Shown here in pieces: positions 35,457-56,773 of a DNA stretch of 64,000 bases. The position numbers and the translations under genes were made by a program. The stretch's first letter is position 1; every line of letters begins with the position of its first letter. The notes under the pieces are model-generated. The model made no database searches, had not been told where the DNA came from, and saw only the letters and a list, made by a program, of their open reading frames with translations. This stretch comes from Bryoerythrophyllum caledonicum (taxonomy: Eukaryota > Streptophyta > Bryopsida > Pottiales > Pottiaceae). Location: assembly GCA_963971425.1 (NCBI GenBank), contig OZ020520.1:23950754-24014753 (forward strand), read 5' to 3'.

Positions 35457-38017
35457 TTATACGCCTGTTGGTAGTGGCTCTCCGCTTTCTATTTTTCTTT
35501 TGTGTAGTATTATGGACATGGCATGGTGTATAGCAATTGTGTTTATTTCTCTAAATGTATTTTTTATAAGTTTCTTTAATATTTTGAGTTTGGTTTTTAG
35601 GATTTTCATAGGGGGGATGTGTGTAGATGCTCTGGCACCTGCTGTAATTACTATTAGTGGTTCAACCATCCAACCTTTGTTGATAATATCGTTGATGAGA
35701 GGTTGGTATTTTTCTATCTTTCTCTCAATGGTATCTGGTGAGAATCTGTCATTACAGTATGTGAATTCTATAAATTGTACCTTTAAATTGATGTTGGGAG
35801 ATGTAGGGGGTTTTGATTGGTAGGGTAGTCCTTTTATGCATAGTAGGTCTGGTTTTAGTCGTGCATTACATTGGCATCTTTGTTGTATGCATGTACATGG
35901 TAGTAGCCATGGAGGGACTGTATTCTCTGGTGGTTTATCATTACATGTGCCCGCATTCATGAGGGTATAAGATCTTGAATTTTTTGATGAGACTAGTAGT
36001 TTTTTAATTTCCCAAACTGCTTTATTGTGTCTTTTTGTTCTAAGCGCATGTATATGGTGTTGTTTGCATTTTAGCAGTACATGTAACCATGTGTCTGGAT
36101 CTTGGGAGTCGCATATTGAGCATGTGATTGATGGATATAATTCTTTACCAAAAAATAGTTGTTTTCTAACATTGCCCATATATTGACCATGTCTTAGTTT
36201 TAGGAGGCATGTCTTTTGGGAGTCTGTTACTTGTTTATTAGTCCAGAATTCATTGGATAGTTTATCGTCAATGTCAGTATTACTTATCCATTTATTTATA
36301 TTGGAGAAATTTGTTGCAATGTCTGTTAAGTTATGTTCTTTGTCATATTTAATAATATGCTTTTCAAGAAATCTTATAGGGCCTTTATCTGGGGTTTCGT
36401 CGATAGAATGCCACCAGTCTCTTTGAAAGTAATATGGTGTAGAATGTGCAAATTCATGTGGTAGGGCTGCATTGTGGTAATCTTTGTCTCTACCTTGTTT
36501 GGCTAGTTCGTCAGCTTTTTCGTTGCCATCTATATTTGCGTGAGCTCTTACTTTGTACAATGATGTAGGTTGTGTTTTTTGTTGCAAAAGTGTTACTATA
36601 TCTTGTAGAATGGTTTTGTCCGGGTGGTTATTATGTTGGGTGGGGTGTTTGAGTTGTGTTTGGATATTGTACAGGCCATTTAAACAGTCTGTGAAAATGT
36701 GTGCAGGTTCATTAGGGTATTTGGAGGTAATAATTTGTAGGGTTGTGTATATTGCCATTATTTCAGCTCTAAATATGTTTTGTGAACCTGGGAGTCTTAT
36801 GGCTAGTTTTATATTTTTGGATTGATTGTATATTCCATATCGTGCAGTTTCACGAGTCCAATGATTGCCTATATCTTGTGGTGGGAGAAATGAGCCATCA
36901 GTATAGTAGCAGTGTTGTGATAAGAATTTGGGTTGTTTATCATTTATGAAGTTAGGAATTGTTGTTGTATTGTAGTTTGTGACTAGGTTCTCTGTTGGGT
37001 ATGTGAGTGTGTTCCATTCTTTGCTTTTGTTAACTTGTGTATTTAGTTGTGTTGGCGGGGCAATTTGTATGTATGGTTGAGGGATTTGGAGTTTGTTAAA
37101 AATTGTGGTTAGGGCGGTGATTTGTTCATTATTTCCAACACTGGTGTTTTTATGGTGTACACATAATATGTGAATAGCAGAAGGTTCTATTCGGGTTTTA
37201 GTAAATTCGGGTGGTTTTGTTGGTTCTTCATATGTTATTGTATCTGTTGGTATGTATGTAACAACATGTGTGTCTGGATAGGGGCCTTTATGCGGTGTTA
37301 GATTATGGTACCAGTTGTTGTCGGGAGTAGTTATTATGGTAATGGTGTTTGGGTTGTTTTTTGCTGCAAGTCTAGCCCAGTGTATAGCTTTCTGGGTATC
37401 TGTTTTGTTATGTGGGTGAGCATAGCCTATTCCTTTCCATTTGTAAGAAAATGCTTGTCCCATAGATCCAAAAACTTTGTCTCTTTTAAATGGTGAGTAA
37501 AACTTATCTATTTGAGTGGAGCAAGTTACTGGTGAGGAAAAATACGTGTGAGTTATATTGAAAGATGTTATGATGTGGTCAAGTAATATTTTTGGCAAAG
37601 AGTAATGTGCAAGTTTAAGTGGGTCGGTTTTTGGAATTCTATATTTGTATCTTTGGTATAGCCATATTATTTCTGTTTCAAATGGTTGTGTAGGAGGTGT
37701 TAGTCCGTGTGGTGAATTTTTTGCTTTGGAGTATTGGTTCCATAGCCATTTTAGTCTGGCTATAGGTATAGTCGTGAGGTGCTTGCCTGTTTCATCGTAA
37801 AGGTGTGCCGTTTCAACTTTTATTTGTATGGTGTTTTGGTTGGTGTTGATATCTTTTGAGGGATTGCATTCATTTACATTGATATGTATAAGGGGGAGGG
37901 GCATGGTTGGAAGTATGTATCTTGTATCTCGGGTTTGTTCTTCTAAAAAATGGGTATTTATTAAATTTCTATAATGTGTATGTTGTTTTGTAATGTAATA
38001 TTGAGCAAGCAAAGAGG
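35457..38017 (-). pseudogene. LINE C-terminal part: RNase H and zinc-binding region
   Basis: This open frame runs from the transposon junction to a stop at 35457 (about 850 residues). It has no start codon of its own: it is the continuation of the frame cut at 51765. The RNase H catalytic pieces are visible in order: YYTDGSFLPPQD, FRAEIMAIYTTLQI, HIFTDCLNGLYNI and KVRAHANIDGNEKADELAKQ. A Cys/His knuckle of the kind found at LINE C-termini follows (CSICDSQDPDTWLHVLLKCK). The last 150 residues include a Cys-rich stretch (PCTCIQQRCQCNA) of unknown role. In an intact element RNase H would remove the RNA template during target-primed reverse transcription. Apart from the split I see no internal stop. 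Confidence 0.88.
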
Positions 38018-38021
38018 TGTT
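38018..38021. repeat. Left target-site duplication (TGTT) of the 13.7-kb transposon
   Basis: TGTT lies directly outside the left inverted repeat and is repeated at 51761-51764 directly outside the right one. Dropping one copy together with the element gives a 13,743-base deletion, a multiple of three, and a continuous LINE frame. Confidence 0.85.
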
Positions 38022-38048
38022 AACACGCAATTAAGCAATTATGCACTT
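38022..38048 (+). repeat. Left terminal inverted repeat of the 13.7-kb transposon
   Basis: Twenty-seven bases beginning AACACGCAATTAAGC, identical to the reverse complement of 51734-51760. A related short word, gtgcacttgg, recurs at 38061-38070, as a possible subterminal transposase-binding repeat. Confidence 0.92.
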
Positions 38049-38593
38049 GGCCATATAAAAGTGCACTTGGGTACAACGGCGGCCATTGCGAACAAAAGTG
38101 GCAAAATTGCAAAAAAAAAAAAAAAAACAATGAAAAAAAATGATTTCCAAAGAAAAAAAATTGAGCTTCTACAACAATATTACGTACAATCATGGTTGTT
38201 AATATTGGAAGCGGTTTTTTGGCATTTTCAACTAATTTTTGGTGGCCCCTCGTTAATACTAGATAAATCTGTATTTAATATAGTTTCACAATATTTCAAA
38301 GATAGATTTGAAGGATTGTAGTATACAAACCGGCGTAATCACATAAAAACATAGTTTATGCAAGGGTTGGCAGTTGATTAAAAGATATTCTACGTAGTAT
38401 ATAATGCATACAATGGTGGAAATTAAATATAGATTCTTCTACATCTGGACTTAGCACCAATAGTAAAATTACCTTCACTCTATAGGATTAATGACATAAC
38501 GTCTTACATCACCCTTAGAATATACTACTCTTACACGTACACTATATATCAATTACCATACACAACTAGTATACTCTCATAAAGGCACACTAT
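38049..38593. other. Left subterminal region of the transposon
   Basis: Non-coding and A-rich, with a run of 18 A at about 38110-38127. It contains the 3' untranslated region of the DUF7869-like gene. No further inverted repetition with the right end was found by eye. Confidence 0.5.
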
Positions 38594-41500
38594 CTACTCC
38601 ACAGAATTTAAGGCTGCTTGCAAACGGTCGTCATCGATAGCTTCGGTTTGCATTGCAATATATTGTAGTATGTGAGCCTTTGCCGATTGAAGAATGCGAA
38701 TCCTGCTTTCAACTTGCACTCCAAATACATTGCGCTTTCTCCACCCGCTCGCCCCAGACATGGTTCTTTCCAGTGTATCTACCCATGAAAAAATGCATGC
38801 ATCTTTCTCTACCCAACTATGGCTCTCCCCAGATGGCTCCCAGAATGAATCCATGCAATTTGCATATCGTTGTGCAGAAGACCCATGTCCATCAGCAACC
38901 CCCCTTTGGATGATGGGCCAATACCAACAAACCTTAATCTTAAGTCTCCATCGGTTTTTTCCTTCCTCAATCACTTTCCCCACATAGAATGGTACACCGC
39001 CTTCTATCTCTGCTTGATCAACACTCAAGGCTACAAACTGTCCACAACGGATATCAGATTGTGGATTAAATGGTGGAAATGGGTCGTGATTACCTTCATA
39101 CATTGCTCCTTCTTCGGCGCGTTCCTCAACATAGTTACGCTCTGTTTGTTGTGCCCTACGCACTGCTTGATTAGAGGGTCTTCCTCTACGATGACCAAAG
39201 TATCCTCGAGCCTCGGCATTTGGAAGCATGGCCACTACCTGCTCTACAACATCTATCTCGCGATTTTCTTCACTTGCACCATCCATTACATCCAAAGATG
39301 TGCTCCCTGTAGGTCCGGTGTTGGAGAACTCTGAAGGCCAAAACAGTGAGGAACGATGCTCATTGCTACGGTCTTTATGTGGAAATTCAGCTAAATAGAG
39401 TTTCAATCTTTCAGCCTCTATTTTTGCCTCACGATTCTTGTCCTCATGCTGCAACCTTTGGATGCACCTTTCTTTATATACAATGAAGTCATCCAACGCC
39501 TTCAACTCCCGTTCATCCGCTCCAAATACTTCCGCAAACGCTGGTCGTTCATCCCTACTTGGCAACGACCTCAAAGTTTTCGTCCCTGCCTCCGGTCCCC
39601 ATGGATCCTTGCAATAATGCTTGTGTTGTACTCGAACCACACGAGTCCCTTCTCGATTGTCCATATAGAATCGCATGTGGTGCGGAAATGTTATGCCCAC
39701 CAATGAATCCTGACCTGTCAGTAAGTGAGGAGTTATAAACAATTTCCAATCCCATACATTCTCTAGCAGCCGGGCGCTAACAAATGCCTCTGTAGGGGAT
39801 GTTCCTCGTTCTATAAGACTCATCATTTCCTTCAACGAATCCACGTCCGACCTCTTCAACGTATTTGATATACAACTGAAGCGTTGATCAATATCTTCGT
39901 GTGTATGGCCCACTATAAGAAAAGATAGTTCCACCTCCTGAAAAAACCCCAATCCCACCAATGTAGCACATAGAGCAAACATATAAATGTTTTTGTTCTC
40001 ACGCGTGCAGTTGTCGGCCTGAATCCGCAATGTTGGTGGCAAAAAGCCCCTCCTCCGCAGCACATCTCCTATCACGTACAACAATGTACTCACGACTTGG
40101 TTGCTATCGTGTTTGTGGTGAGCCCCGAACCACACGTCGCAATATAAACCAATCCCATGTACAAGAGCACCACACAAATGGGTCTTCACAAACCGGTGTT
40201 CAATGTTCTTCACAGTCTGACGCATCCTCGGTACCATAGTCGTGTTTTGATCCATGCCATCCACTATGATGCACATGTACAACTCAGGGCTAATATAACA
40301 CGACCTCTTGAATATCCAATAATGCCTACGTTCTTCCATTTGGTTGCGTAGATGCAACATAAACAACTCCTTTATCTTTATCCTTGCATCCGCATTGGTG
40401 GTTCCCTCCATGGCACATTTATACTCCCAACAATGATAACACTTTGAGAATCTCGAGAATGGAGGTACCTGAACGTGGGGATACTTGATGCGCCACATCC
40501 TCCGAAACGAACTCATAGAAATGGTTTCTCCAATACAAATTCTCTTGACCTCCTCGTTCACGTAATTGAATACATCAAATTTGGCTGTATTCATAGGAAG
40601 GAGAATGAGAGGCACCACTTCGTTGTCACTCTTACGGCGAATACAACGATGAGGTTGAGGACAACCAGCTTCATCGACAAACGATTTAAAGCAAGCCTCT
40701 GCTGCAGACATTCTAGTACTCTCTCTTATCGGATCTGAAAGGGTATTGCCGTGAATTGATGTCACTCTTCCATATATTAGACAGTCCTTCTTCAATTGCT
40801 TAAAGCGCCTCTGTGAATATCCAACCCCAAGAGCGTAGCAAGCATTGCAAACTTCTTTCCCATCTAACTTTGTTACAAACTTGTCTCGACGAGTTCCTTC
40901 CGTCCTTGTGTAAAAAGAAACCAGCATCTGTCTCATCCACGTACTTCGAACTGAAAACTCACTACCCCATGCATTATATCGCATGTCCAATAGATACCTT
41001 GCTGGAACATCCCTCAAACAATTGCGTTTGCATCCTCCTTGTGCCATTGCAATTTGCACGCTTCTAAGCGATACCTTAGATGGTGCAGCTTCTGTCAATG
41101 ATGGCTCCCTTGAATCTCTCCTTCTCCTATTTTGCATAGAATATGGACGTCGTGCTGGTCTAACATAAGCAAATCCATCTACATGGGGCAAATCTTGGAT
41201 ATTTGAGGGAGTAGATTGGGAAAACGGCGAATTTTCATCTATGGCGTTTGAAGCATGACTACTGCGTCGAGACCTCTGGGTGGATCCTGGTGTGTTGATG
41301 AACTCAGGAAAATCAAATTCTGGGGCCATCACTTCTACAGGCGCTATCTGTGATCCAACGTCACCATGGACACTTGTGATATCAGGTTCTACAGCCACTA
41401 CACGTAGCAAAGATCGATGCCAACGAATGATCAAGCCCACACACATGCCAAGGCGTTCTCCTACAATCTCTCCGGTCCAATGCAATGCATCATCTACCCT

Positions 41501-41824
41501 AATGATACGCACCGCCACCTCGAATGGGAACAACTTCGATCCATTCAATTCCATGCCACTTTTGAATGCATGCTCCCTGGTTGCTAAGCCCACCACATCT
41601 CCTCTTTCTGAAAGCAATTCTACTGCCCTTTCCAATTCAGAAGTCATGATCCCAACAGATCTCTGTTGAATTCGCCTTGCACGTGCTGCTCGTACTAATC
41701 GGGCCCCCACAGAGCTATTAGAAGGCATATTGTCCCTTTCGATGTGTGGCCGTATCAAAGGAGTCTGAATCGTGCGGCTCTCCATTATCACTATTGAAAA
41801 AATAGGAACATTATGGCTGCACAT
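38594..41824 (-). CDS. DUF7869-like transposase candidate of the 13.7-kb element
   Basis: An uninterrupted 1,076-residue frame. The core from about residue 430 to 700 matches proteins annotated from memory as DUF7869: a Cys motif (FSKCYHCWEYKC), then IIVDGMDQNTT (near 520), QADNCTRENKN (near 601) and FLIVGHTHEDIDQRF (near 637). The spacing of Asp, Asp and Glu/Asp fits an RNase H-fold DDE-type nuclease, but that is inference. An upstream Cys segment (VCNACYALGVGYSQRRF) is also typical. Around residue 930 lies a segment (VPFYVGKVIEEGKNRW...VCWYWP) like a small chromatin-type beta-barrel. Residues 780-860 are charged and helical. The first ATG is at 41824; a second Met (MESRTIQT) lies 13 codons on. 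It is divergently placed from the other gene and is the best transposase candidate for this element. Confidence 0.75.
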   Translation of the reverse strand: MCSHNVPIFSIVIMESRTIQTPLIRPHIERDNMPSNSSVGARLVRAARARRIQQRSVGIMTSELERAVELLSERGDVVGLATREHAFKSGMELNGSKLFPFEVAVRIIRVDDALHWTGEIVGERLGMCVGLIIRWHRSLLRVVAVEPDITSVHGDVGSQIAPVEVMAPEFDFPEFINTPGSTQRSRRSSHASNAIDENSPFSQSTPSNIQDLPHVDGFAYVRPARRPYSMQNRRRRDSREPSLTEAAPSKVSLRSVQIAMAQGGCKRNCLRDVPARYLLDMRYNAWGSEFSVRSTWMRQMLVSFYTRTEGTRRDKFVTKLDGKEVCNACYALGVGYSQRRFKQLKKDCLIYGRVTSIHGNTLSDPIRESTRMSAAEACFKSFVDEAGCPQPHRCIRRKSDNEVVPLILLPMNTAKFDVFNYVNEEVKRICIGETISMSSFRRMWRIKYPHVQVPPFSRFSKCYHCWEYKCAMEGTTNADARIKIKELFMLHLRNQMEERRHYWIFKRSCYISPELYMCIIVDGMDQNTTMVPRMRQTVKNIEHRFVKTHLCGALVHGIGLYCDVWFGAHHKHDSNQVVSTLLYVIGDVLRRRGFLPPTLRIQADNCTRENKNIYMFALCATLVGLGFFQEVELSFLIVGHTHEDIDQRFSCISNTLKRSDVDSLKEMMSLIERGTSPTEAFVSARLLENVWDWKLFITPHLLTGQDSLVGITFPHHMRFYMDNREGTRVVRVQHKHYCKDPWGPEAGTKTLRSLPSRDERPAFAEVFGADERELKALDDFIVYKERCIQRLQHEDKNREAKIEAERLKLYLAEFPHKDRSNEHRSSLFWPSEFSNTGPTGSTSLDVMDGASEENREIDVVEQVVAMLPNAEARGYFGHRRGRPSNQAVRRAQQTERNYVEERAEEGAMYEGNHDPFPPFNPQSDIRCGQFVALSVDQAEIEGGVPFYVGKVIEEGKNRWRLKIKVCWYWPIIQRGVADGHGSSAQRYANCMDSFWEPSGESHSWVEKDACIFSWVDTLERTMSGASGWRKRNVFGVQVESRIRILQSAKAHILQYIAMQTEAIDDDRLQAALNSVE

Positions 41825-42003
41825 TAGTCAAAATACATGTATTAATTGTTAACCTTCAAATCACCATTCATCTGATAAAAGGTATGTTTCTAAACACATA
41901 TTTACTGTTCAAAATATGATGATGATATTGTATCTTTTGATAAAACTGCTTTGAAATGAGAAAATTAAGAATTTTTAGAACATGAACTCTTTGCACGGAG
42001 TCT

Positions 42004-42949
42004 TTAACCCTGAAGGTACAATGATAGTGTACACCAAAAACACTTCTAAATTGTTGGATTCCAGTGCAACGAACAAAAAATGAAACAAAAACTTTTATTT
42101 CTAGTTTTCACCGTAGTTTCTCAATTACGACTTACTAATTAATAATTAAAAAAACATTCATAAACTTTGACCGCACGGATTGAAAGATTATAGTGTTTGA
42201 AGTGAAGCTTATGGTTCATTTACTTCCCTGCATGTTGTGGATCAGCAGACTTTGACTTCACTTCGTGTCAAATTTATTTTTACAGAAGGTCTAAATCCTT
42301 AACCATCTTGTTAAGCATGATGTTTGTTCCTTGTACACCAATTTTTAGAGGGAGAAAAAAGGTGTAGCATATTCAAAACAACTGTGCAAAGAGTCGAAGT
42401 TCGGAATTTGTTAATTCACACTGTAATTTTTTGTGAACTTAATATGTTTTAGACTGGTAATTGAAATGGTCAATAAGAAGGTTTACATCACATATTGTAG
42501 TGGAAAAAAAAAGTGAAAAATAAAAAGATATCTAGGTTTTATTTGGAAAACAAGAAGTTTTTTGGTACCTTGCCCATCACTGACTGACAATGTGTGAAAA
42601 TGTTTGATTTGGGTTGGTATGCTATTTTTCAATAAAGACAAGAACTTATTTTGACAACATCAAGGGAAATAATTTTACTTTTGAGTACAAAAAATCTCAC
42701 ATTCAACAGAGTGTCCTAGCAAAAGTTTTTGGAGGTGCCCAACTTATTTGCTCTCTCCATTTTAAATTTATAACCCTATAACTTTTTGATCAAATGTCCA
42801 ATTTACGTAAAAATCATTTTCCCACTAAGGTTTTGGTAATGCCTTTCTATAGTAAAATTTACAAAGAGGAATGTTGGACATTGACACCATAGAAACCTGA
42901 CCAAACATTCAACAAGCCAATTTTTGACACTTTATCTATTAGGGGTTAA
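42004..42949 (-). mobile_element. TTAA-bounded MITE-like element, reversed copy inside the transposon
   Basis: Ends TTAACCCTGAAGGTAC and TATTAGGGGTTAA, bounded by TTAA. The interior is the reverse complement of the 4792-5746 copy with the same landmarks (for example 'ttccctgc', 'tggtaccttgcc'). Confidence 0.85.
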
Positions 42950-43239
42950 ATATGCTACACCTCTTTTGCATTCCTAAACATTGGTGAATAATGGAACTAA
43001 TCAATCTTCACATGATGATAATGAACCTAGATCATGTGTGATGCAATCTTTTGAATCCAAGTGAACTGAAACGAAGGGAATTCACTGAACCTAAGGAAGA
43101 AAATGAACCATGTTGTCTACTTGCTATTATTGACACCATTGGAACTTGTTACAATCGCTAATTAAATAATGGATTTGTACGTCCACATAAAGGTTATTCT
43201 ACAAACAACATAGTACAAAAGATCAATCAAGAATCAATC

Positions 43240-44191
43240 TTAACCCCTAAGGTATCGTGACAGTTTTACACCAAAAACACTTCAAACTAAATGGATTCTA
43301 GTGCAACGAATAAATAAGGAAACAAAAACTTTGATTTTTAGTTCTGACTGTAGGATCTCAATAAAAGCTTATTAAGTAATACATATACAAAATTTCAAAA
43401 ACTTTGTCCCCACGGATTAAAAAATTATAGTGTTTGAAGTCAACCAAATGGTTCATTTTCTTCCCTGCGTTTAGTGGATCAATAGACGTTGACTTCAGTT
43501 GGTGTCAAAAAATTTCACTACAAAAGGTCTAAATCTATTACCATCTTGATAAGCATGATGTGAGCTCCTTACACACCATTTTTTAGAGGTAGAAACCGGG
43601 TGTAGCATATTCAAAACAAGTGTGCAAGGAGTGGAGGCTTGAAATTTGTTAATTCACATTTTAATTTTTTTTTAACTTAATATGTTTTTGATTGACAATC
43701 CGAATGGTTAATATGAATGTTTACATTACATATTGATGTGGAAAAAATAAAAAGTGAAAAATATGAAAATATATAGGTTTTATTTGGAAAACAAGAAGTT
43801 TTTTTGGTACCTTGCCCGACAATGAGTGACAATGTGTGAAAATGTTTGACTTGGGTTGGAATGCTATTTTTCACTAAAGACAAGAATTTTTTTTGGACAA
43901 TATGAAGGGAAATAATATTACTTGCAAGTAATGAAAATCTCACTTTCAATAGAGTGTCCTATCAAAAGTTTTTGGAGGTGCCCGAGGTGCCCGCTCTTCC
44001 CATTAACATTCAAAACCCTATAACTTTTTCATCAAATGTCCAATTTAGGTACAAATTGTTTTCCTACTAAGGTCTTGGTAATGTCTTTTTATTGTAAAAA
44101 TTTCAAAGAAGAATGTTGGAAATTGACACCATAGGAACCTGACCGAACTTTCAAAAAGCCCTTTTTGGACACTTGGTACCTTAGGGGTTAA
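43240..44191 (-). mobile_element. TTAA-bounded MITE-like element, second reversed copy inside the transposon
   Basis: It begins TTAACCCCTAAGGTA and ends GGTACCTTAGGGGTTAA. At 952 bp it is nearly the same length as the 955-bp copy at 4792, and appears to be its closest relative in the window, in inverse orientation. Confidence 0.88.
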
Positions 44192-45040
44192 ACTTGTATA
44201 AAAATAAATGTTTACCTCAAGATACGTTGCAGGTGTTAGCGGTACACGCACTGATGCTTGATGGCGTTCAACATTATATCACCATTCTGTCGTTGTTGTT
44301 CGGCATGTTTCTCAACCCTTCCCCCTTTACCTGCAACACATGCATAAAGTTTATATGGTAAACTATGTGATAAAAAATCTTATATGTATCTTCGTATTAC
44401 ATATAGCCCGAAAATTTATTATAATATATTGAAAAAATTAACATATGGAGAAACAAAGCAAAAGGTCCAAAGTTCTTAAAGTCAAACTTTTACTACTAAA
44501 CTTGAGGCACAAGGTTCCAACATGGATAAAAGGTTTCTATGCAAACCTAGAGGTCATTTCTCTTCGCAGTTTCTAAGGTGGGTATTCTTGCAATCAAAAC
44601 CTCAAGGCTATGTGCATTTTTTCTTCATTCACTAATTACTGTTAAATTTGTATACTGTGTAGATTGGAGGAAATTTGCACATCGAGGAGATTTTTGCGAA
44701 CTTGGTAAGCTTCTAACTTTGTTTCAATTCTGAATGTGAGGAACTCAAGGGTTATGTTCATGATGATTGAAGTTCAGACAGAATTATGTTAGTGTTAGGT
44801 GAGTACCAAAGTTTGAATTCACAAATGAGAACACCAACTAAAATATGTACAAGATTGCAATTTCAACAAGAAAATATGATAGCAGTCAACAACTAGAGAG
44901 TGCAAGCATTGTTATACTGAAAAAATGACACCAAAACCTCATAAAGTGGTCAAAAGAGCAGCTCGTAGTATTGCACAAAATCCTCAATATGGCACATCAG
45001 CGCACTACTTGAAACCCTAGCCTCTACACACAAGAACCTA

Positions 45041-45260
45041 AACCCTAGTTCCAAAACCCTAGCCGCCGTCACCAAACCCTAGCCACCACCACCAAATCCT
45101 AGCCACCACCTCCAAACCCTAGCCACCACCACCAAATCCTAGCCACCACCACCAAACCCTAGCCACCACCACCAAACCCTAGCCACCACCATCAAACCCT
45201 AACCATCGCCGCCAAAACCTAACCGCCGCCATCAAACCCTAGCCGCCACAACCACGAATC
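45041..45260 (+). repeat. 20-bp telobox tandem array, about ten units
   Basis: Units of exactly 20 bp with consensus agccaccaccaccaaaccct, in register from 45061 and degenerating at both ends. Each carries AAACCCTAG, the plant telobox core. The period is not a multiple of three, so it is not a coding repeat. Confidence 0.92.
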
Positions 45261-45495
45261 CAAACCCTAGTCAACATATTCGCGTGACGTGGAAATCGCG
45301 TGACGCCTCCCAAAGTAACCTTGAGCTAGAGCTGTGCGCGCGCAACCCCTACTGCTGGTGCTCCTCCACCAAGCTAATCCAAACACATCGAGGCGAAAAT
45401 CAAAACAATAGCTTCCTCCGCGCTCAAACTGTGGCAGTCAACCTCCTCGTTGCGCGGCTTCGCAGGTGCGACCGCCTCCTTCCCATTTCATTGGC

Positions 45496-45695
45496 NNNNN
45501 NNNNNNNNNNNNNNNNNNNNNNNNNNNNNNNNNNNNNNNNNNNNNNNNNNNNNNNNNNNNNNNNNNNNNNNNNNNNNNNNNNNNNNNNNNNNNNNNNNNN
45601 NNNNNNNNNNNNNNNNNNNNNNNNNNNNNNNNNNNNNNNNNNNNNNNNNNNNNNNNNNNNNNNNNNNNNNNNNNNNNNNNNNNNNNNNNNNNNNN
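45496..45695. other. Assembly gap of 200 N
   Basis: Exactly 200 unknown bases, a conventional gap size. The true length is unknown. Sequence right of it is a 21-bp microsatellite, which probably caused the assembly break. Confidence 0.99.
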
Positions 45696-45778
45696 CACAC
45701 ATCTCCCACATATCTCCTCACACCTCCCGCATATCTCCTCACACCTCCCACATATCTCCTCACACCTCCCACACATTG
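45696..45778 (+). repeat. 21-bp microsatellite next to the gap
   Basis: About four units of catatctcctcacacctccc(a/g). The array touches the gap, so its full length is not known. Confidence 0.88.
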
Positions 45779-46099
45779 TCTCTCTCCTCCTAACCCTACC
45801 CTCTCACTCACAGCCTCATCACAACTTCTACCAGGGGTGTGCGCGCGCACACCCCTCCTAGACTACCCACTTGAGCAAAGGATTGATATCCTTATTGATA
45901 CCCGGAAACCAAAACCCTAATCCAAACCCTAATTTGATACACCGGTTGATAACCGCTTGTGGTACCAAGGAGCTCATACCCTGGTCGTCATACCCTAGAT
46001 ATTGATACCCCGAGTACCTTGGTCCATAAATAATGTAGAGAATATCTAACCCAAATATCGTTAAAATTGCTTGTTTTTGTGAAATTAGAAAGCCTCTTC

Positions 46100-47130
46100 A
46101 ATTAATGTTTTTTTCTTAGTTTTAACCGTAGGATCTCAATGATGACTTATTAAGTAATATGCTCACAAAATTTCATAAAGTTTCACCGCACGGATTGAAA
46201 GATTATAATGTTTGAAGTAGTGAAAATGCTCATTTTCTTCCCTGCGTTTTCTGGATCAGCAGTCTTTGATTTCAATTGGTGTCACATTTTTGCACTATAA
46301 AAGGTCTCAATTAATTACCATAATGTTAAGCTTGATGTTAATTTTCTATATACCGATTTTTAGAGTTAGAAAAGGGGTGTAGCATATTCAAAAAAATTGT
46401 GCAATGAGTGGGGGTTCAAAAATTCACAATTCACGTTATGTTTTTTTGTGAACTTAATATCGTTTGAAATGAGAATCCAAATGGTCAATACGAAGGTTTA
46501 CATCACATAATGCCGTAGAAAAAATCAAAAGTGAATCATACAAAGATCTCAAAGTTTTATGTGGAAAGGTAGAAGTTTTTTGGTACTCTCCTTGAAAATG
46601 TGTGACAATGTGTGAAAATAATTGACTTGGATTAATATGCTTTTTCACCAAAGAACTAACAACATGCTTAACACGATGGTATTGGATTTACATCTCGTGT
46701 AGTGCAAAAGTTTTTAGAGGTAGACAAGGGGTGTAGCATATTTTTTTTAAATGTGCAATGAGTGGAGGTCGAAAATTTCTCAATTCACGTTATGTTTTTT
46801 TGTGAACTCGATATTTTTTTAAATGAGAATCCAAATGGTCAATAAGAAGTTTTACATTGCATAATGTTGTAGGCAAAATCAAAAGTGAATCGTACGAAGT
46901 TCTCAAAGTTTTATGTGGAAAGATAGAAGTTTTCTGGTACTCTCCCTGAAAATGTGTAACAATGTGTGAAAATAATTGACTTGGATTAATATGGTATTTC
47001 ACCAAAGAACTAACAACATGCTTAACACGATGGTATTGAATTTAGATCTTGTGTAGTGCAAAAGTTTTTAGAGGTAGACAAAGGGTGTTGCATGTTCAAA
47101 AATATTGTGCAATGAGTGGTGGTTCAAAAA
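46100..47130 (-). repeat. Fragment of the TTAA-element family, partly triplicated
   Basis: From 46100 the sequence follows the reversed family ('ttaaccgtaggatctcaat', 'ccgcacggattgaaagattat'). A block starting tttttagag(g/t)taga then recurs at about 46361, 46709 and 47066, a period of roughly 350 bp. The third copy runs straight into the start of the large plus-strand gene. Confidence 0.8.
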
Positions 47131-47196
47131 TTCTTATTCCATACTAATAGTGACTATCGTTTTGTAATGATATATAGGTTTTTTGAGTGTTGCGTT

Positions 47197-50100
47197 ATGG
47201 CACCACCAAATATTGATAGAATCTGGGAGAGCCACGGTTGGTGGATCGCAGAAGTGGATGAGTCGAGCGCCTTCTTATGGGTGACGGATTATCCCTTTGA
47301 GTTGGGAAAGCGTACATCGGCGTTGGGGAAGAGTTTTGGCAAAATCCAAGCAATCACTCTTCGACGTGATGATATGGTATACGTTACTTGCGCAGTGGGT
47401 CCAGGTCAATCGGAGGTGAAGACTTCTCTTTCGAAGAAGTTACTTTTGGCACCTGTCCCTTTGAATCTTCTTCAAAATCCAGGTCAGGTGAAATTCCTCA
47501 AATCATTGCAGACGTTTTGGTTGAACATATCTCTTGCGGTACGTACTGCTAGACACAACAACGTCTTAGCCTGTTTAGCGTTATCACCGGAGATGGTACT
47601 GAAGGCTAAGAAGATTATGGAGGAACATATTAGATATGAAGCATTTCGGGAGAGGGACCCATCACGTGCGACAACTCAAGCCCCACCAGCGGAACCAGAA
47701 GAAACAGAAGTTTATCGAATTCTTGCTGAGCCGTTGCAACTGGATTGGCGACCACTGGAGGGGGGGGGAGGAAGTGGAGGCCAACATCCCATCACAACTT
47801 CTGAGGTACAGACATTACCGAATCCTCCATTAACGAGTAGACGTCCTACGAAGAGGCCACGGCGTGTTGAGAGTGATGTAGCTTCAGGTTCAAGAGAAGG
47901 CCCATCAAGTTTGGATCCAAGTGGGAGGAGGTTGATTGGAAGAAGTGCAAGATCAGGTGGCAGGATTCCTAGGTCGGGGCTCAGGACGTCTGATGGTCAT
48001 CGTAGGGCCCCTACATCTACACCGGGAGATTTAGCTGATTTGTCAGCCATGGCGCAGGAGGAAGAAGATTTTCACAACCTTCCAGACAGTGTATCAGAGG
48101 ATTTTGAAGACAATGCGGAGATACCACAGGATCTTCCAATTCTAATGAATTTAAAAGCACCAGTGCCTACAACAGAGGAGATTGCGAAAGGATCAGTGTG
48201 GGGGAATTTTGTGTTTAAGGCACACATAGACCGCATTGTCTCTGTGGAAAATCCGGAAACCAACCACCGGGTTTTATCACAGAAGAGGGTCATAGAAGTA
48301 TTCAACCGCTTACGAGACCCAGAATCTGCGAGTCGGGTGAGTAGATTGGTACTTCGACCGATCAGATACATCGTGCATACTACCACCGATGATGGTGTCG
48401 TTGAAAAGGAAGAGCTGCCGTTTCCGTTGGTAGGTACCGCACGAGAGTTTGAACGCATGTTCATTGCACACGGGAGTGCTTCTGCAGAGGGTGCTATGGG
48501 ATCGCAATATTCTTGGCTTCAAGATCATATCATTTGGGAACCGGTGGATGGGCAACACATAGTAGCAGCTTGTAAGTTTGCACAGCAGCAGTGGAGAGAT
48601 GGTACTATGCCATTAAACGAGTATCTGGACACGTTTGAGCGGCGGGAGGCCTCTTTTGTGGTGTATGATGATCGTCGCTTTTACATTGAGAAGTCTGCGC
48701 GGATCAACGTGGCGGAGTTCCAGAGACATTCATATTCTACCATGGAGGAGGATTTGAGGAAGATCCGTCAGATTTGGGATCTATACGGGAGGCCTGATAG
48801 CACACTACGTGCGGACGATGCACGTAGGGCTGTTGCTTTGGTGAGTGCGGCAAGTGCAGTGCATAAGTTGCCCAAGGGGGATGGAGTTGTCACGGTGAAG
48901 AGGTTGGCCAAAAACATGGAGGATCTGACCAATCATGCATGGAATCCGAGCAATGACTGCTTCGAAGCTATCATTCAAGTATGCAAGGACTACGAAGATG
49001 GCATTCTCTTTTACAGCAAGGAGGAAGAGGACAAGTGGAAGGACATGGCGAGGAAGAAAGAGCTGGATCCAAATGTGGACGTACGACCAACAAGAAAGGA
49101 GATGACCCAAAATTGGTTGAGGCCGTTAGGTAGGGTTCCAATTCCATATTATCTTCGGTTGGCAAAGTCTGCTGCAGCGAAGCCGGTGACGGAGGATGGA
49201 GTAAGACCTCGTCAAGCATACTACTTCGACGGTGTAAAAGACAAGAATCCACATCCTCGTACGATTGCCGGTGTTTGTGACCGATATCAGAGACGAGAAG
49301 CTGTGATCAATTCCATCCGTTGGTTGATGGTGGAGAACAAGGAAAGTACACCTGATTCCATGGAGGAGTTCTTCCGTATCCGTGTAGGGAAGTATTTTCC
49401 GAGGAGTAACGCACAACTTGATACCTTTGGGAAGCTTTTGAATGCTGCCACGAAAAAAGCTTGGACTGCTCCTGTGCGGGGGAAGGTGTCTAAACTGGAA
49501 GACATAGGCTACCTTATCCCTCCTTCCATCAGGTTTCATTATGGTGACATTGCAGCAGGAGGGCGTGGATACATTGGACTGTCTGTGGATGTGGGAGGAC
49601 AGGCTACTGCTAATTGGGAATGGCAGATGGAAGTCAAGAGGCCAGGCCAGAGCGACACAGAGAATCTTACTCCGATTCGGTGTAGAAGAGGGTTATTCCG
49701 CACCGACTACATAGAGTTGGGGAAACCATGTTTGTGGGTGATTGATTGTCGACGTGGCGGTGGGAGGCATGGAGATGGTCATTGGGGAGACGCCCAGTTA
49801 TCCGCAGCTTTTGCACAGCTGTCATTATGGATGGCAAATATTGAACGATGGAATGTCATCTTCTTGTTACCAGCGGCCGTGTATGCCAACGAAGAGTTTT
49901 TCACGAAGGTGAAGCTTCCAGAGGGATGTACTATGCGACGTGGATGTTGGGCATTTGATCCGAACTCGGTTAATCCCTATGCTCTCGATTTTACAGAGAA
50001 TGGGCGTCTGGAACAAGTAGTACAACCGATTGGCGATGTTGTGATTTGTATGCAGCATCCTGTGGATACATCTCCTGGCCCGAACTATGTTTCTGGAGAC

Positions 50101-51162
50101 ATTCCACTTCCTCTTGTTTTCTTGGATCACTGGAGTGAAGCACGCCAACCTTCTGAAGTTGATTCACTTGAGAGATCTCCATCAGAGCTGGCAAGACTAG
50201 TGGGCTCATACTTGCCCCGTGGTTGGGGTTTAGTGGCGTGTAACATATCTACGGCCATTCCCACGATCCTTGAAGGAGATTTCCAGGGATCTGAGGTTTT
50301 CATCATTGACGATTGTATAGACAGAGTTTCATTTCTGTACAATGAGTTGTCCGACAATTTCCAAGGACAACTGTTGGTCAGGACTGGTGGAACAAGTACT
50401 GGTTGCAACATCGTACCTGAGACCGAAGAGGCGGTTGGTGGAGTGAGGAATGAAGATGACAATGAGGATGGAGATGGTTTACATGAGAGATTGCCACGTT
50501 CAGGTACCACTGAAGATTTTTCATCTCGCAGTGGTTCAGACGCCGATGAAGATGGAGTGAACCAGTCTCCTCCAAGAGAGACGATTCCATCAACGCAGCG
50601 GGCGGTGGGAGATACTTCACGGGAGACGACTACATCACCTACAGAGAGGATGCAAGATACTGGTGTAGTGGATGTTGGTTTGGCGGCAGGGGCAGGAAGG
50701 GGGCGTACATTTGATGGTCCTAGGCTGGAGATGGAGGAAGAAGAATTGGATTCATTGGAATTTTTTTCGGTGCAGAGGAGGATTCGACAGCCTTTGATGC
50801 CTTCTCAATCAGAGCCTGTATCGGAGACACAAGAGACGTTCGGAGGTATTCAGAGTGATACCGGACTAGGTTTGCCTTCCGTTCCAAGATCTAGCGTATC
50901 CGAGGACATCATTGCATTTCAGGGGGCCTTCTCATTAGAGCGAGAGATGTCCTTCAATCCTGAAGACGGCTTTTTCTACAATGATGATCGCGTAAGGCAT
51001 ACGCGGGAGGGTGTACCTGGCAATTACCGATTTGTTGAGTGTGCGTCCATTGGCATCGAAGATGTGGGAGATCGTCCAGTGCAGGATCATGAACTGTCCG
51101 CTATGGTAGGTAGCGCCATTGGACACGTGGAGGGAGTCGTTCCGCCAGAAGATGAGCTCTGA
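47197..51162 (+). CDS. Large unrecognised protein of the 13.7-kb transposon (ParB-like motif)
   Basis: An uninterrupted frame of 1,321 residues from the ATG at 47197 (residue 28 of a longer frame open from 47116; the first 27 codons lie in repeat DNA, so I prefer the internal start). Numbering from 47116: residues 30-130 form a folded N-terminal domain with many aromatics (WESHGWWIAEVDESS). Residues 190-330 are disordered and Pro/Ser/Arg-rich. Residues 340-680 include IIWEPVDGQHIVAACKFAQ near 475, which resembles the DGQHR/ParB-type motif. Residues 830-1060 are predicted alpha/beta, with LWVIDCRRGGGRHGDGHWG near 871 and WNVIFLLPA further on, resembling the strand 4 to strand 5 part of a Rossmann methyltransferase with an altered catalytic motif. 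The C-terminus is acidic and disordered. I do not recognise the family. Its role may be DNA recognition or regulation with the partner gene. Confidence 0.7.
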   Translation: MAPPNIDRIWESHGWWIAEVDESSAFLWVTDYPFELGKRTSALGKSFGKIQAITLRRDDMVYVTCAVGPGQSEVKTSLSKKLLLAPVPLNLLQNPGQVKFLKSLQTFWLNISLAVRTARHNNVLACLALSPEMVLKAKKIMEEHIRYEAFRERDPSRATTQAPPAEPEETEVYRILAEPLQLDWRPLEGGGGSGGQHPITTSEVQTLPNPPLTSRRPTKRPRRVESDVASGSREGPSSLDPSGRRLIGRSARSGGRIPRSGLRTSDGHRRAPTSTPGDLADLSAMAQEEEDFHNLPDSVSEDFEDNAEIPQDLPILMNLKAPVPTTEEIAKGSVWGNFVFKAHIDRIVSVENPETNHRVLSQKRVIEVFNRLRDPESASRVSRLVLRPIRYIVHTTTDDGVVEKEELPFPLVGTAREFERMFIAHGSASAEGAMGSQYSWLQDHIIWEPVDGQHIVAACKFAQQQWRDGTMPLNEYLDTFERREASFVVYDDRRFYIEKSARINVAEFQRHSYSTMEEDLRKIRQIWDLYGRPDSTLRADDARRAVALVSAASAVHKLPKGDGVVTVKRLAKNMEDLTNHAWNPSNDCFEAIIQVCKDYEDGILFYSKEEEDKWKDMARKKELDPNVDVRPTRKEMTQNWLRPLGRVPIPYYLRLAKSAAAKPVTEDGVRPRQAYYFDGVKDKNPHPRTIAGVCDRYQRREAVINSIRWLMVENKESTPDSMEEFFRIRVGKYFPRSNAQLDTFGKLLNAATKKAWTAPVRGKVSKLEDIGYLIPPSIRFHYGDIAAGGRGYIGLSVDVGGQATANWEWQMEVKRPGQSDTENLTPIRCRRGLFRTDYIELGKPCLWVIDCRRGGGRHGDGHWGDAQLSAAFAQLSLWMANIERWNVIFLLPAAVYANEEFFTKVKLPEGCTMRRGCWAFDPNSVNPYALDFTENGRLEQVVQPIGDVVICMQHPVDTSPGPNYVSGDIPLPLVFLDHWSEARQPSEVDSLERSPSELARLVGSYLPRGWGLVACNISTAIPTILEGDFQGSEVFIIDDCIDRVSFLYNELSDNFQGQLLVRTGGTSTGCNIVPETEEAVGGVRNEDDNEDGDGLHERLPRSGTTEDFSSRSGSDADEDGVNQSPPRETIPSTQRAVGDTSRETTTSPTERMQDTGVVDVGLAAGAGRGRTFDGPRLEMEEEELDSLEFFSVQRRIRQPLMPSQSEPVSETQETFGGIQSDTGLGLPSVPRSSVSEDIIAFQGAFSLEREMSFNPEDGFFYNDDRVRHTREGVPGNYRFVECASIGIEDVGDRPVQDHELSAMVGSAIGHVEGVVPPEDEL

Positions 51163-51733
51163 GCCCTGGAGCTATATACTATAGTAGAGCATGCACGCAG
51201 TTTAGGTGGCAAGTACGTTAGTATAATGTAGTTTGAGATGTGTCTATCGTTTGGTGGGTGGTATATATTTATATATTGGATGGTCCATATGATATGATTG
51301 ATTTTAGAATTCCTCAGTGATAGTGTGGAATTGCTTGATTATGTATGTTTTTGCATTATAAAATACAGTGAGGTACTTTACACTATCTTAGGAAATTGCA
51401 TATATATTTTTGTATCTCTTACACATTGTATTTGTAGTGCAGTACTCTAAAATCCTATAATAACTCATAACACATTTATAATCTCTTTGGGCACATGATC
51501 ATAATTTTGTAGCAGGATTTGGAAACTAGATTAGAAATCATATATTTTCTTAAAAAAGGTAGCGAATGTAAAAAATATATTATTGATATGAACATGAAGA
51601 TGCCAATGTATGACACGAGAAACACCCAAAAAATTTGACAAAAAACATACTTAACTTTTGCCAAATTTTGATTTTTTAAAAAGTTATGAGCAAATAACTT
51701 GCGGCTTTCTACCAACAACCACTGCACTTGGCT
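51163..51733. other. Right subterminal region of the transposon
   Basis: Non-coding and AT-rich, with the 3' end of the large gene. The word actgcacttggct at 51721-51733 adjoins the right inverted repeat and echoes tgcacttgg near the left end. Confidence 0.5.
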
Positions 51734-51760
51734 AAGTGCATAATTGCTTAATTGCGTGTT
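51734..51760 (-). repeat. Right terminal inverted repeat of the 13.7-kb transposon
   Basis: The reverse complement equals 38022-38048 over all 27 bases. TGTT follows at 51761-51764. Confidence 0.92.
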
Positions 51761-52648
51761 TGTTGTGTTGTATAGTTATTGGTATGTTTAGTGGGAAGAG
51801 GCCACTTTGTGGTATCCATTTATTATATGTAATATCGTTTGGTAATTTCCATTGGCATAGGTAGGTGTGGTATGTTTTTGGAATATTGTATTTGTCTTTT
51901 GTTTTGTTTTCTTTGTGGTCTAATATTGAATGTATGGGAAATGTAGTTGGGTTATTGGTGATTTCAATTGGTGGTTTCAAGTAAGGGGGATGTGGTGGTG
52001 GTAGGCGGTGTATAGGATTTGTACCAAGGTTGGGTAAAATATGATGGTCGTGTGTTCTATATTCATGTTTTAGAGTTCGTGGTGTAGGGTGCTCAGTGCA
52101 TGGGTTTTGGCATTGGGGGTTGCATGTAGGATAGCAGAAAAGTTGTTCAGCTATGTTAAGGGCTTGTTTGATTACTTTAGTTGGTGTACTGTAGTATATT
52201 TTGAATTCATTATGTGACATTAGATTTAGACCATTTGGGAGTGTTAAATGTTTAATCTCATGTATGTTTTGAAGTAATAATTTGTTGAGGAGTTTGTGAT
52301 TTTGCTTTGGCGTGAAGTGTGGTAATATTTCTGATGATAGGTTGAGCCACATTTGTTCAAGAGGTGTGGCTTCAAGTGGGAAGTTTCTTGTTGTACTTCT
52401 CAAGTGAGCGCATCCACATCGTTTGATAAGATAGAGTGTTCTTGTTGTAGGTGATCGTAAACAATCGTATTGTTTAATTCTGGGAATCTCTTGTGCTCCG
52501 CCGTATTTAGCAAGTATAAAATGTGTAAGACCTCTATAGATTATTCCCAGTTTTCCTGTGTCATTAAGAGCATTGCGTAGTTGTTCACCTATGCACCTTA
52601 GGTATGTGTTCTTTAATGAGAATGCTTCTATGCCAAACATATCATGTG

Positions 52649-52698
52649 GCAATTGGGTAATTATGTTGGGAGGGCAATTGGGTAATTACGTTGGGAGT
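52649..52698 (-). repeat. 25-bp tandem duplication that breaks the LINE frame
   Basis: Two adjacent copies (52649-52673 and 52674-52698) of ggcaattgggtaattat, then gttgggag, differ at one base. Twenty-five is not a multiple of three, and removing one copy would put the reverse transcriptase frame and the following frame in register. Confidence 0.9.
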
Positions 52699-55600
52699 GC
52701 AATTTGGTAGCCCACAAATTTTCTTTTGTATTGCTATAATTTTTTTGTCTAGTTTTTTAATAGTAGGTAGTGAGTATGGTACCGCGAAAAAACTATATGC
52801 AATGCCTGCTCTTATAACTGTGTCTACCATGCTAACTTTTTGTTTAATAGTAGCTGGACAATTTACTAATTGGTTGCATTGTTTAATTAGTTTGGTGGTT
52901 GTTGTGTGTGTCTGTATTTTCCAATTCAATGATGGGACTAGTTGTATTCCTAGATATACATATGGCTCATTTTGATGTAGTATGGGAATCGGTTGGTTTT
53001 TGTATGATATATTTGCAGCTTGTATTAGTGCTTTGAAGACTATTTGATTTGTTTTGGATTTGTTTGGGCATCCAGTAATTGCACATTTCGGAATTCCTAG
53101 GTCCATTCCAGCCCATTCGCAGAATTTGTCCATTTTATTAAGTTGATTTTTTATTGAGGGAAGTTTGTTTGTTATGATTGCAAGATCATCTGCGTATGCT
53201 GCTGTATTTATTGTTGTTTTTGAAGTTCCCAAGGTATAGCCGTATTTTCCTCTTTGTAACCATCGTAAAAGTGGTTCTAGAAAAATAAGAAAGAAATATG
53301 GGCTAAGTGTATCTCCTTGTATTGTGCCTCTTTGAATGGATATTTTTTGGGTTTGGCCAAAGTATTCACCAGTAAAAATGGTGTTAGACTGTGAATAGAT
53401 ATCTCCTACTAGTATTACCGCGTCCTCAGGGTATCCTAAATCTTTCATAATGGCTAGTAGACGGGCGTGGTCAATCGAGCCAAATGCATTTTTGAAATCT
53501 ATATAGAGTAAATATATATCTTGCGTTGTTAGTTGTGCATCTTCTAAAGCCGATATTAGTAATTGTAATTGTCTAGATGTGCATCTTTCGGCACGGAACC
53601 CTTCTTGGCTGTCATGTAGAATTTGGTGTTTTTCTCCGTATGCTGAGAGTATTGATGTTAGTGTACTTGTAAAAAATTTGTATATAGTGTTGGCTAGCGC
53701 TATAGGTCTGTGATTTGGTAGTTGAGATGGGTCACCCTTTTTGTATAGTAGTATTGTGAGGCTTATTTTCCATGATGCCGGAATTTGTTTTTGTTTATAG
53801 CAATGTTTAAAGAATAGGAATAAGATGCGGTGGAAGTTTGTAGGCATGTTCTTCAGGATAGAGTTGGGTATTCTGTCCGGTCCTGGGGTTTTGTTGTTTG
53901 CAAGGTTTTTTAGGCATAAGTCAAAAGTTTCTTGATCAAAGTATGTATGCAACGGAGTTTGTGGATGACCTCTTTTATCTATTACAAAGCCTTCTAGGTC
54001 ATGCCATGGGTATTGTCTAACTCCGCATGTGCATTCAGGAGGGTGTTTTGGTAAGTAATAACATGTTGGAACAGTGGGTTTATTAATAATTGATTGTTGT
54101 ATGTAAATTTCATTGGCAATGTCTTGTGGACTTGTTAGTATGTTATTATTGTGATCCGTGATGCAGTCTAATGGTGGTGTTTCTTGGTTTTTGAATACTT
54201 TATTGTTTATCTTTTTTGTGGTTATTTCATATAATTGTCTGTATTTGGATATAGCCTTTTTTATACATTCTTTTGTGTAATTTGACGTGATTTTTCTTGC
54301 TTTTTTGTTTGCGGTCTTGGCTAGTGTAGCTAGATCATTTATCCATGGTTCAATAAGTAAGTCGTCATTTGGGGGTGGTGGGATCTTGACATGGGTGTGT
54401 TTGTTTAATTCATTGATAATTGGATGTGATCGCCATTGTGGTGTGTTTTTTGTGATATATATTGCTTTTCTAATTAGGTGGTATGTTGCAACATGTTTTT
54501 TCCATGTTTTTTGGGTTTTGCGTGGTAAGTATCCTCCTTGTTTTGAGATTCTATTATTGAGTGTAGGTATGGGTGGTGCGCTACACGTATTTTCTATAGC
54601 TTCTGATATTTTTTGAGTGATTTCGTTCATATGGGAGCATGCTAGTTTCCAATGATCGGGATTTAGATGTTCGTATGATAATATGGTGTCTAGGTCATTT
54701 AATTGTAAAGCGTTGTTTTCATAAAAGTTTGTGTTGAATTTATCTAAATTCTCTTGCGGTATAGGGTTGAGTATTCTAATTGGTCTCGAGGTCGGTGGGG
54801 TGGGGTGGTGTGCAATAAGTTTGTTTTGGGGTATGTGTAGTGAAATGGGTGCATGGTCAGAGTTAAGATTGGCTTCTGTAATTGTGGTACATGTGTATAG
54901 ATTGTGATTTTGTGTTTTGATATAAAAGCCGTCTATTAGACTTATATGTGTATAGTTGTATCCACCTTGTCTAGAGTAGTTTGTATTTGTTGGGACATAT
55001 GTTAGTGCTAAGCTATCAATATATGTTTTCCATGCAAAATCTTCTTCTTGTGGTGGTGTGGTATTATGTTCATTTTGTCGTCCTATTAAAGCTATGTCTC
55101 TATTAAAGTCTCCACATAGTATGAGAGTGTGGTTAGGATATGTGTTAATTTGTGTTGTAATAGTTTGTTGTATTATTGAGATTAGTTCAATATCTTCATG
55201 ATGTGAGGGCATATATAGGTGTATCAATAGCCATGGTTGTAGAGGATGGTTTTTTATGTGTATAATTTGTAAGTAGGGTGAGATTTTTAGAGGGGTTGCT
55301 ATTTTGGTGATATTTCCTGGGTATGCATATTTGTGATTTATTAGTGTAAGTAGTCCTCCTCTAGCGGGTGTGTAAGTGATCCGTTGTTGAATGCATCTAG
55401 TTAGTGCGTGAGTATTGTTAAATATTAGTTTATAATCTGGGAATAAATTTTGTATGTACTTTATTGGCTTGGTGGCAGTTAGTTTAGTTTCTTGGATGGT
55501 GATAATGGCCGGGTTTGTATGTAAGGCAAGTTCTTCTAAACTAGGTAATGCAGTATTTAGTGTAGCTGCATTCCATGTAACAATGTTAGTTTGATGGCTA

Positions 55601-56223
55601 TTGTTATGTGTATTGGATTGAAGTGGTGATGAGATATGGGTCAATGGAGGGGGGTGTGTGTACTCATCTAGGGGTTCATAAATTCTTAGTGTTTCTTCGA
55701 GAAGATTGTTTGATAGAAAAGGAAATTTGGTTTTTAGCATTTGTATTGATGGTGCATTTTGTGTTTGGTGTATGAAATCATATAATTCTTTGTGTATACT
55801 AGATGAGGGGTTTATTATTTTTTGATTATTTGTTATATATTGTGTATATGGGTGTTCGATGTGAATATGCCTTTCGGGTGGGTTTGGTAGTGTAGACATC
55901 TTGTTTAATAACTTGGCGGTCCAATCTGGTTCGGGAAAATTTATTAGTTGGTGTTCATATGAATTTATGTTAGGGCTGATGGTTGTTATCAGTGCAAATA
56001 ATATTTGTGCTAAAGGGTAATTTCTTATTTGGTTGAGATATGTGTTTAAGTGTGGGAAGTTTCTAATAGTAATTTGGTGGTGTTGGTGATCTTGTTTTAG
56101 TATGGGGGAGAAACTTTTTGCAAGGTGTTGATACTCAGGTTGGAGTTTGATTCTACAAGAAATGAAGTACATTTTGTATCTACGTTTATGAGCTGATGGG
56201 TGGGTTTTAAACACATCTGGCAT

Positions 56224-56247
56224 AGGGCCAGGGTTCGTTTCAATATC
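56224..56247 (-). other. 2A-like ribosome-skipping motif in the LINE
   Basis: Codons for DIETNPGP, an exact match to the D-x-E-x-N-P-G-P consensus, preceded by HHLIKCG. In 2A peptides the ribosome fails to join Gly to the final Pro and restarts, releasing the upstream peptide. Here it would separate the first 227 residues from the endonuclease/RT polyprotein. Such motifs are known in some trypanosome and animal LINEs. Confidence 0.85.
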
Positions 56248-56773
56248 CCCGCATTTGATTAGATGATGCATATCATTATATTTGTAATAATATGTATTGA
56301 TGGTTGTCTTGGATACATATATTGAGGTAGTGTTAAAAATAGATTTTTTATAACAATCTGTTTTGGTCAAAAAGTAAGTAGGTAGAAATAATGAGTTTTC
56401 TAAAAGATTTGTTTCTAAAAATATTTTGTCTAAAAATATGATTTCTAAAAGCAGATTGATATTTATTTCAAAAAGATTCATATATATTCTTATTGTCATT
56501 AGAATTTCTATTTTTAGTAAGTCTATTTTTGGCTCCTTCGGCGAACAGCCGGCCGGCGAGACAATAATTTGCCCTTCCATTTTTATACTAATTTTACATA
56601 GATTCAACAAATTTCTACTCTTTAATCGCAAACTCTTCTCATCATTATATATCTCAAGTTTTATTTTACTATTAACTTTGCTTTTATCCCTATAATTTAT
56701 ATTCCAACTTCTATTTTTAGTATGCCCAATTATATTTTTAGTACTTTCTCTACTTATTTTTACTCTAAAATTT

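Follow-up and report, generated by a model that had tools for sequence, protein, structure and literature searches.

Published descriptions indicate that transposons of the Sola superfamily generate 4-bp target duplications, encode a DDD transposase and end in inverted repeats of 11-1124 bp; most are 2-9 kb long, some exceed 15 kb, and members occur in Physcomitrella, according to an excerpt of that source (PMC10741241). Sola1 has been recorded in Physcomitrella (PMC9033089, excerpt), the curated Sola1 elements of bivalves have a mean length of 5,445 bp (PMC10294476, excerpt), and Sola2 elements can hold a captured second gene, whose protein is Fanzor1 (PMC3627910, excerpt). For other cut-and-paste groups, further excerpts give a 2-bp TA duplication for Tc1/mariner (PMC10741241), a TTAA target duplication for Kolobok and piggyBac (PMC9587614), a 4-bp duplication for Ginger1 (PMC10045372), and additional coding sequences for the plant transposons MuDR, CACTA, and PIF/Harbinger (PMC9033089).

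The locus described here lies in a stretch of 64,000 nucleotides of Bryoerythrophyllum caledonicum (the window). With high confidence, we read it as a complete and structurally autonomous cut-and-paste transposon of ~13.7 kb, with 32-bp inverted repeats that start with AACA, a variable 4-bp target duplication, and a gene 1 that likely encodes the transposase; its nearest known superfamily is probably Sola. The features are collected in Table 1.

Table 1. Features of the element and of the LINE that it interrupts, in window coordinates
Feature	Position	Strand	Remark
Interrupted LINE, 3' part with RNase H domain	35457..38017	-	
Left copy of the target duplication, TGTT	38018..38021		single copy at empty LINE sites
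Left terminal inverted repeat	38022..38053	+	begins AACACG; perfect over 27 bp, 31/32 matching over 32 bp
Gene 1, putative transposase of the DDD type with DUF7869	38594..41824	-	1,076-aa frame
Putative catalytic core of gene 1	39887..40261	-	D522 (VDGMDQ), D604 (QADNC), D644/D646 (GHTHEDID)
Intergenic repeat, two copies ~1.24 kb apart	42030..44192		repeat families D2, D6, D8, D10
20-bp minisatellite AAACCCTAGCCACCACCACC, 10 copies	45054..45254		
Assembly gap, exactly 200 N	45496..45695		within element
354-bp tandem repeat, 2.2 copies	46357..47133		upstream of gene 2
Gene 2, open frame of 1,348 aa, no known domain	47116..51162	+	
Right terminal inverted repeat	51729..51760	-	ends ...CGTGTT
Right copy of the target duplication, TGTT	51761..51764		single copy at empty LINE sites
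Interrupted LINE, 5' part with endonuclease and reverse transcriptase domains	51765..56907	-	

The initial annotation had defined the element by 27-bp perfect inverted repeats with TGTT directly outside both of them, and we found both as described, the perfect repeats at 38022-38048 and 51734-51760. With equal base frequencies, a perfect 27-bp pair is expected ~1e-7 times anywhere in 64 kb. The motif TGCACTTGG stands again at element position 41, after the left terminal inverted repeat. The motif TGCACTT occurs at most 50 bp from the left end in two forward copies and one reversed copy, and at most 50 bp from the right end in one copy in each direction, with two further reversed copies inside; it is plausibly a binding site.

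The LINE frames 51732-52652 and 35457-38030, both on the reverse strand, fuse in frame once the element and one TGTT are deleted, so the LINE does stop on one side and resume on the other in the same register, as had been claimed. The LINE also has a defect of its own: close to 52645, where a 25-bp tandem duplication lies (52648-52709), its frame changes. Its N-terminal part (51765-56907, reverse strand) contains a 2A-like peptide, GDIETNPGP, which seems unusual for a plant LINE, and its 3' part (35457-38030, reverse strand) gives a PCIF1_WW match beside the RNase H domain (E 1.2e-7, 32 bits against a cut-off of 31.1 bits). Both LINE flanks and one TGTT were joined to a 348-bp query for the empty site, with which 41 places were listed, the best 40 of 309 candidates being scored. 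Among the listed places, 36 of the 41 align with the query over its full length, and in 40 of the 41 the junction is crossed without the element, at 94-99% identity and with no added length at the site. All 12 of the junctions fetched are uninterrupted and contain one target copy each, TGTT in 11 and TGCT in one. The scored LINE copies elsewhere are without the element at this site. One clean insertion into an older LINE is well supported; the empty LINE sites and the 4-bp duplications at other copies uphold the initial reading of a giant cut-and-paste element inserted once.

In the host genome, the DUF7869 model, which matches gene 1, picked out 3,613 candidates. Scoring covered 150 of them, every one of which passed the cut-off and many of which have uninterrupted frames of 1,066-1,087 aa; the model gave zero matches in 14 control genomes. 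Twelve fetched loci and the window form seven groups, A to G, with three fetched loci in A (~95% DNA identity to the window), two each in B, C, and D, and one each in E, F, and G. Lineages A and C have a common end, AACACGCAATTAAGCAATTATGCACTTGGCC, the end of lineage B starts with AACATGCAATTAAGC and that of lineage D with AACATGGAATTCGC; the AACA start is common to lineages A-D. The single copy of lineage G has a candidate end, AACACAGTATTCG; ends were not found for lineages E and F.

Further copies were read with the left 201 bp (best 40 of 1,161 candidates scored) and the right 201 bp (best 40 of 834 candidates scored) as queries; with only top-scoring copies read, the sample leans young. 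There are 21 distinct left ends, including that of the window, in varied flanks, with the start AACACG in 20 and TACACG in one. Following 20 of them (the window aside), we found the right end where expected for 13, and the 4-bp flanks are identical in 13 of 13; for four of the 20 a right end was found neither in the fetched stretch nor among the best 40 scored right ends. When the lists of left-end and right-end matches were paired, 14 pairs stood in order and two had their halves on opposite strands. Nine more pairs were read and have matching 4-bp flanks in eight; the pair without a matching duplication is C11, which has a damaged left end. The two opposite-strand pairs also match (AGAG and CTTG). 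Altogether, both ends were located for 25 pairs of the window's lineage, and 24 of these have matching 4-bp flanks (the window, the 13, eight of the nine, and the two on opposite strands), as do the sister lineages (2/2 in B and 1/1 in C). The duplicated sequence varies between copies (TGTT, CTAC, GTTG, AGAG, ACCA, and others). The host assembly holds further copies with both ends and 4-bp duplications, for which the initial annotation had proposed a search, and such ends thus enclose the two genes in many places.

In the host genome, exact copies of the 27-mer number 567 on the forward and 563 on the reverse strand, 1,130 in total, against 0 for its reversed control; the count covers lineages A and C because both have the same 27-mer. 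Among the first 100 termini listed, neighbours less than 30 kb apart face each other in 27 cases, diverge in two, and stand on the same strand in two. Spans of the 27 facing pairs fall at 2.2-7.1 kb (11 pairs), at 11.3-14.4 kb (12 pairs), and at 9.9 kb or >19 kb (four pairs); judged by span, the short pairs of 2.2-7.1 kb are probably internally deleted derivatives. Length is known for 23 of the 25 window-lineage pairs and is 12.1-14.4 kb in 20 of them, the remainder measuring 15.3, 17.6, and 21.1 kb. The element family is real and recently mobile, and the element may be mobile now because the family is abundant and some of its copies are nearly identical.

DUF7869 (PF25273, E 1.3e-50) is the sole Pfam match of gene 1 up to E 10. 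The gene probably starts at the ATG at 41785 (residue 14), because the frames of three copies (L049, L051, and L052) open only past residue 10. Residues D604, D644, and D646 do not vary among the window and the 12 relatives fetched, in stretches that start downstream of D522. An eight-row alignment, with 41-95% identity to the window, has D573 (HDSNQ), D604 (QADNC), H640, D644, and D646 invariant; E643 varies, with S in one of the fetched copies (L082). This pattern of acidic residues suggests a DDD-type catalytic core, and gene 1 most likely encodes the transposase of the element. Pfam, NCBIfam, and PHROGs gave no named transposase family for gene 1, and solved structures gave no match for gene 1 alone and chance-level matches for its profile (best E 0.05); the case for catalysis is therefore made by DUF7869, position, and the invariant acids. 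Relatives of gene 1 are absent from the viral contigs and the bacterial and archaeal genomes searched, neither the gene 1 nor the gene 2 protein matched phage records, and the name DUF7869 is absent from the literature searched, outside which most subscription-journal papers lie. Pfam lists DUF7869 as a domain of unknown function only, whereas here it is linked to defined transposon ends; with the duplications and empty sites added, a transposase role becomes directly testable. In the mechanism that we propose, the gene 1 product would bind both ends via their inverted repeats and via TGCACTT motifs that lie within these repeats or just inside them, excise the element, and attach it to target strands cut with a 4-bp stagger; host gap repair would leave the 4-bp duplication.

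The initial annotation had found no match to hAT, MULE, CACTA, PIF/Harbinger, or mariner. As far as the tests went, this is right for the five superfamilies named, but its list lacked Sola. hAT elements make 8-bp duplications, in contrast to the 4-bp duplications here, and the Pfam scans gave no hAT domain. MULE/MuDR elements have mostly 9-bp duplications in plants and a MULE transposase domain; here the duplication is 4 bp in 24 of 25 pairs and there is no such domain. CACTA (EnSpm) elements have CACTA ends, a 3-bp duplication, and a transposase domain of their own, against ends of AACACG, 4 bp, and no match to that domain. PIF/Harbinger elements are characterized by 3-bp duplications and a DDE_4 domain, and the present element has 4-bp duplications and no DDE_4 match. 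In inverted repeats, a transposase gene, and a further gene, the element is like MuDR, CACTA, and PIF/Harbinger, but its duplication is 4 bp instead of 9, 3, and 3 bp, respectively, and it gave no Pfam match to their transposases. Tc1/mariner is excluded by 4-bp variable duplications in place of TA. Sola3 also duplicates TTAA; because the duplication sequences vary, the element is not of the TTAA type, which rules out Sola3, piggyBac, and Kolobok. Ginger1, whose transposase has an integrase-like (rve) domain, agrees with the element in the 4-bp duplication by its excerpted description, but is rejected by DUF7869 being the sole Pfam match of gene 1 up to E 10.

The likeness to Sola (Sola1/Sola2), drawn from published description in excerpt, lies in the 4-bp duplication (24/25 pairs and 3/3 in sister lineages), in inverted repeats whose length falls within 11-1124 bp, in a known size range that exceeds 15 kb, and in plant members, among them the moss Physcomitrella. 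Alongside the Sola DDD transposase stand the invariant D604, D644, and D646 of the element, D522 being outside the stretches of the 12 relatives. The pattern DNC...NKN...GHT...D of gene 1 presumably resembles Sola-like proteins of animals. The element also has two genes, as Sola2 can by carrying Fanzor1 as a second protein (PMC3627910, excerpt). Two differences are apparent: the element has a conserved head-to-head gene 2 without any Pfam match, and it measures 12.1-14.4 kb in 20 of 23 pairs versus mostly 2-9 kb for Sola as excerpted. By description, the odds of Sola kinship are slightly better than even, and the element is probably a Sola-like variant of giant size whose second gene is conserved.

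A less probable but still serious reading, to which we give perhaps a quarter of the weight, is that the element founds a new DDD-type superfamily of giant two-gene elements, separate from Sola at the rank where superfamilies divide and moving by the mechanism proposed above, characterized by a DUF7869 transposase, AACA...TGTT ends, 4-bp duplications, and an undescribed family of fast-evolving gene 2 proteins that moves with the transposase through at least three lineages. It draws on the match of gene 1 to DUF7869 and to no named transposase model, on the absence of the name DUF7869 from the literature searched, and on the AACA start in lineages A-D, but the 4-bp duplication, the invariant aspartates, the plant-like host, and the size all fit the description of Sola as excerpted. 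A comparable plant element was not found in the titles and opening abstract lines of the literature searched, which is a weak result, most subscription-journal papers being outside it. If this reading is true, a domain catalogued without a function would gain one that can be tested.

Gene 2 may start at the ATG at 47197 (residue 28). Searches of Pfam, NCBIfam, and PHROGs found nothing that matches it, and solved structures gave one chance-level match for the protein (E 1.2) and none for its profile. From a look at its C-terminal motifs we considered a degenerate DNA methyltransferase, but the lone Pfam hint, N6_N4_Mtase at E 1.8 in a lineage B copy, falls in a different region of the protein and is not counted as evidence. 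The best 35 of 2,002 candidate copies of gene 2 were scored; they are at least 94% identical, and 17 of the 35 are free of stops and 18 have stops. In each of the lineages A, B, and C, gene 2 lies head-to-head with gene 1. Its location and direction are unchanged in B and C. In lineage B, its N-terminal two thirds are 65-67% and its C-terminal parts 55-57% identical, and one copy (L100) has gene 2 interrupted by a stop as well as a change of frame; in lineage C, its C-terminal part is 53% identical. A DUF7869 place lies less than 20 kb from 15 of the 35 listed gene 2 places, head-to-head in all 15; missing gene neighbours mean little, because only the best 150 of 3,613 and the best 35 of 2,002 candidates were scored.

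Both genes are under purifying selection, as judged from substitution ratios. Among lineages A, B, and C, the C-terminal half of gene 1 has a dN/dS of 0.12-0.17 and the compared parts of gene 2 have one of 0.33-0.36, values that are rough because dS is high (0.4-0.9) and the lineage D pairs are saturated. Within the lineage, rows were restricted to gap-free open frames, with broken and partial copies dropped; gene 1 rows had at least 1,060 aa with QADNC (n=4 including the window), and gene 2 rows at least 1,240 aa with VIDCRRGG (n=7 including the window). Here dN/dS of gene 1 is 0.26-0.31 when the window is compared with the three intact copies and 0.36 over all six pairs, reaching 0.91 in young pairs, and that of gene 2 is 0.27 (seven sequences, 21 pairs). 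Both genes thus stayed functional during the spread of the element. In the parts compared, gene 2 changes 2-3 times faster than gene 1 relative to silent changes.

With both genes retained and constrained, and gene 2 lacking an assigned domain, the roles might in principle be exchanged, gene 2 being the catalytic transposase and gene 1 the accessory. We consider this improbable, since gene 1 has the invariant acids and the DNC ... GHTHxDID pattern through seven lineages and evolves more slowly. Under the preferred reading, with gene 1 as the likely transposase, gene 2 would be a faster-evolving partner retained by the element, and its likeliest role is an accessory one, such as binding the ends, assembling the complex, or relieving silencing by the host. 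Its fast change would be expected if it were in an arms race with such silencing. The question raised is why so long a DNA transposon keeps a faster-changing second gene.

The interior of the element is repetitive and contains the gap (Table 1), which is a placeholder, judged by its round length. Because of this gap, the length of 13,739 bp (13,743 bp with one TGTT) is only nominal, and the divisibility of 13,743 by three, offered initially as support, carries no weight; the LINE frame across the empty site is in register whatever length the element has. In lineage D, one 5-kb stretch of a copy (L098, C9:16376500-16381500) showed neither gene 2 nor gene 1 and instead has a tandem array with a period of ~1,995 bp, some 8-13 kb inside the left end; because of such arrays, the length of the element may vary strongly. 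In two other copies, the halves lie on different strands yet carry matching 4-bp duplications: C14:19121610 and C14:19277911 (156 kb apart) and C4:32007886 and C4:32030145 (22 kb apart). They are probably flipped scaffold pieces, with 200-N gaps near the break, and matching duplications can expose such assembly errors.

These two copies with their internal N runs, and the 200-N gap in the element itself, could suggest that the LINE halves and the element were misjoined in scaffolding at the gap. Such an artefact is very unlikely here: both junctions lie in contiguous sequence, the halves are one LINE in register, and the empty sites have a single target copy. Least probable of all is a non-mobile or long-dead composite, in which passenger genes were caught between unrelated short repeats through nested insertions, since, for all the arrays, gap, and variable length of the interior, both genes and these ends, each time with a 4-bp duplication of their own, recur at many unrelated sites; the matching duplications would then have to be artefacts.

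Elsewhere in the window, an EF-hand (calmodulin-like) gene at 20254-20817 on the reverse strand looks plant-like, as we take it, and together with AAACCCTA tracts it suggests a land plant, a moss being a guess on this basis. On the 65-Mb contig C1, 38 exact termini of the element lie in the first 12.8 Mb versus two in the following ~41 Mb (12.8-53.6 Mb), a stretch that is either avoided by the element or otherwise composed.
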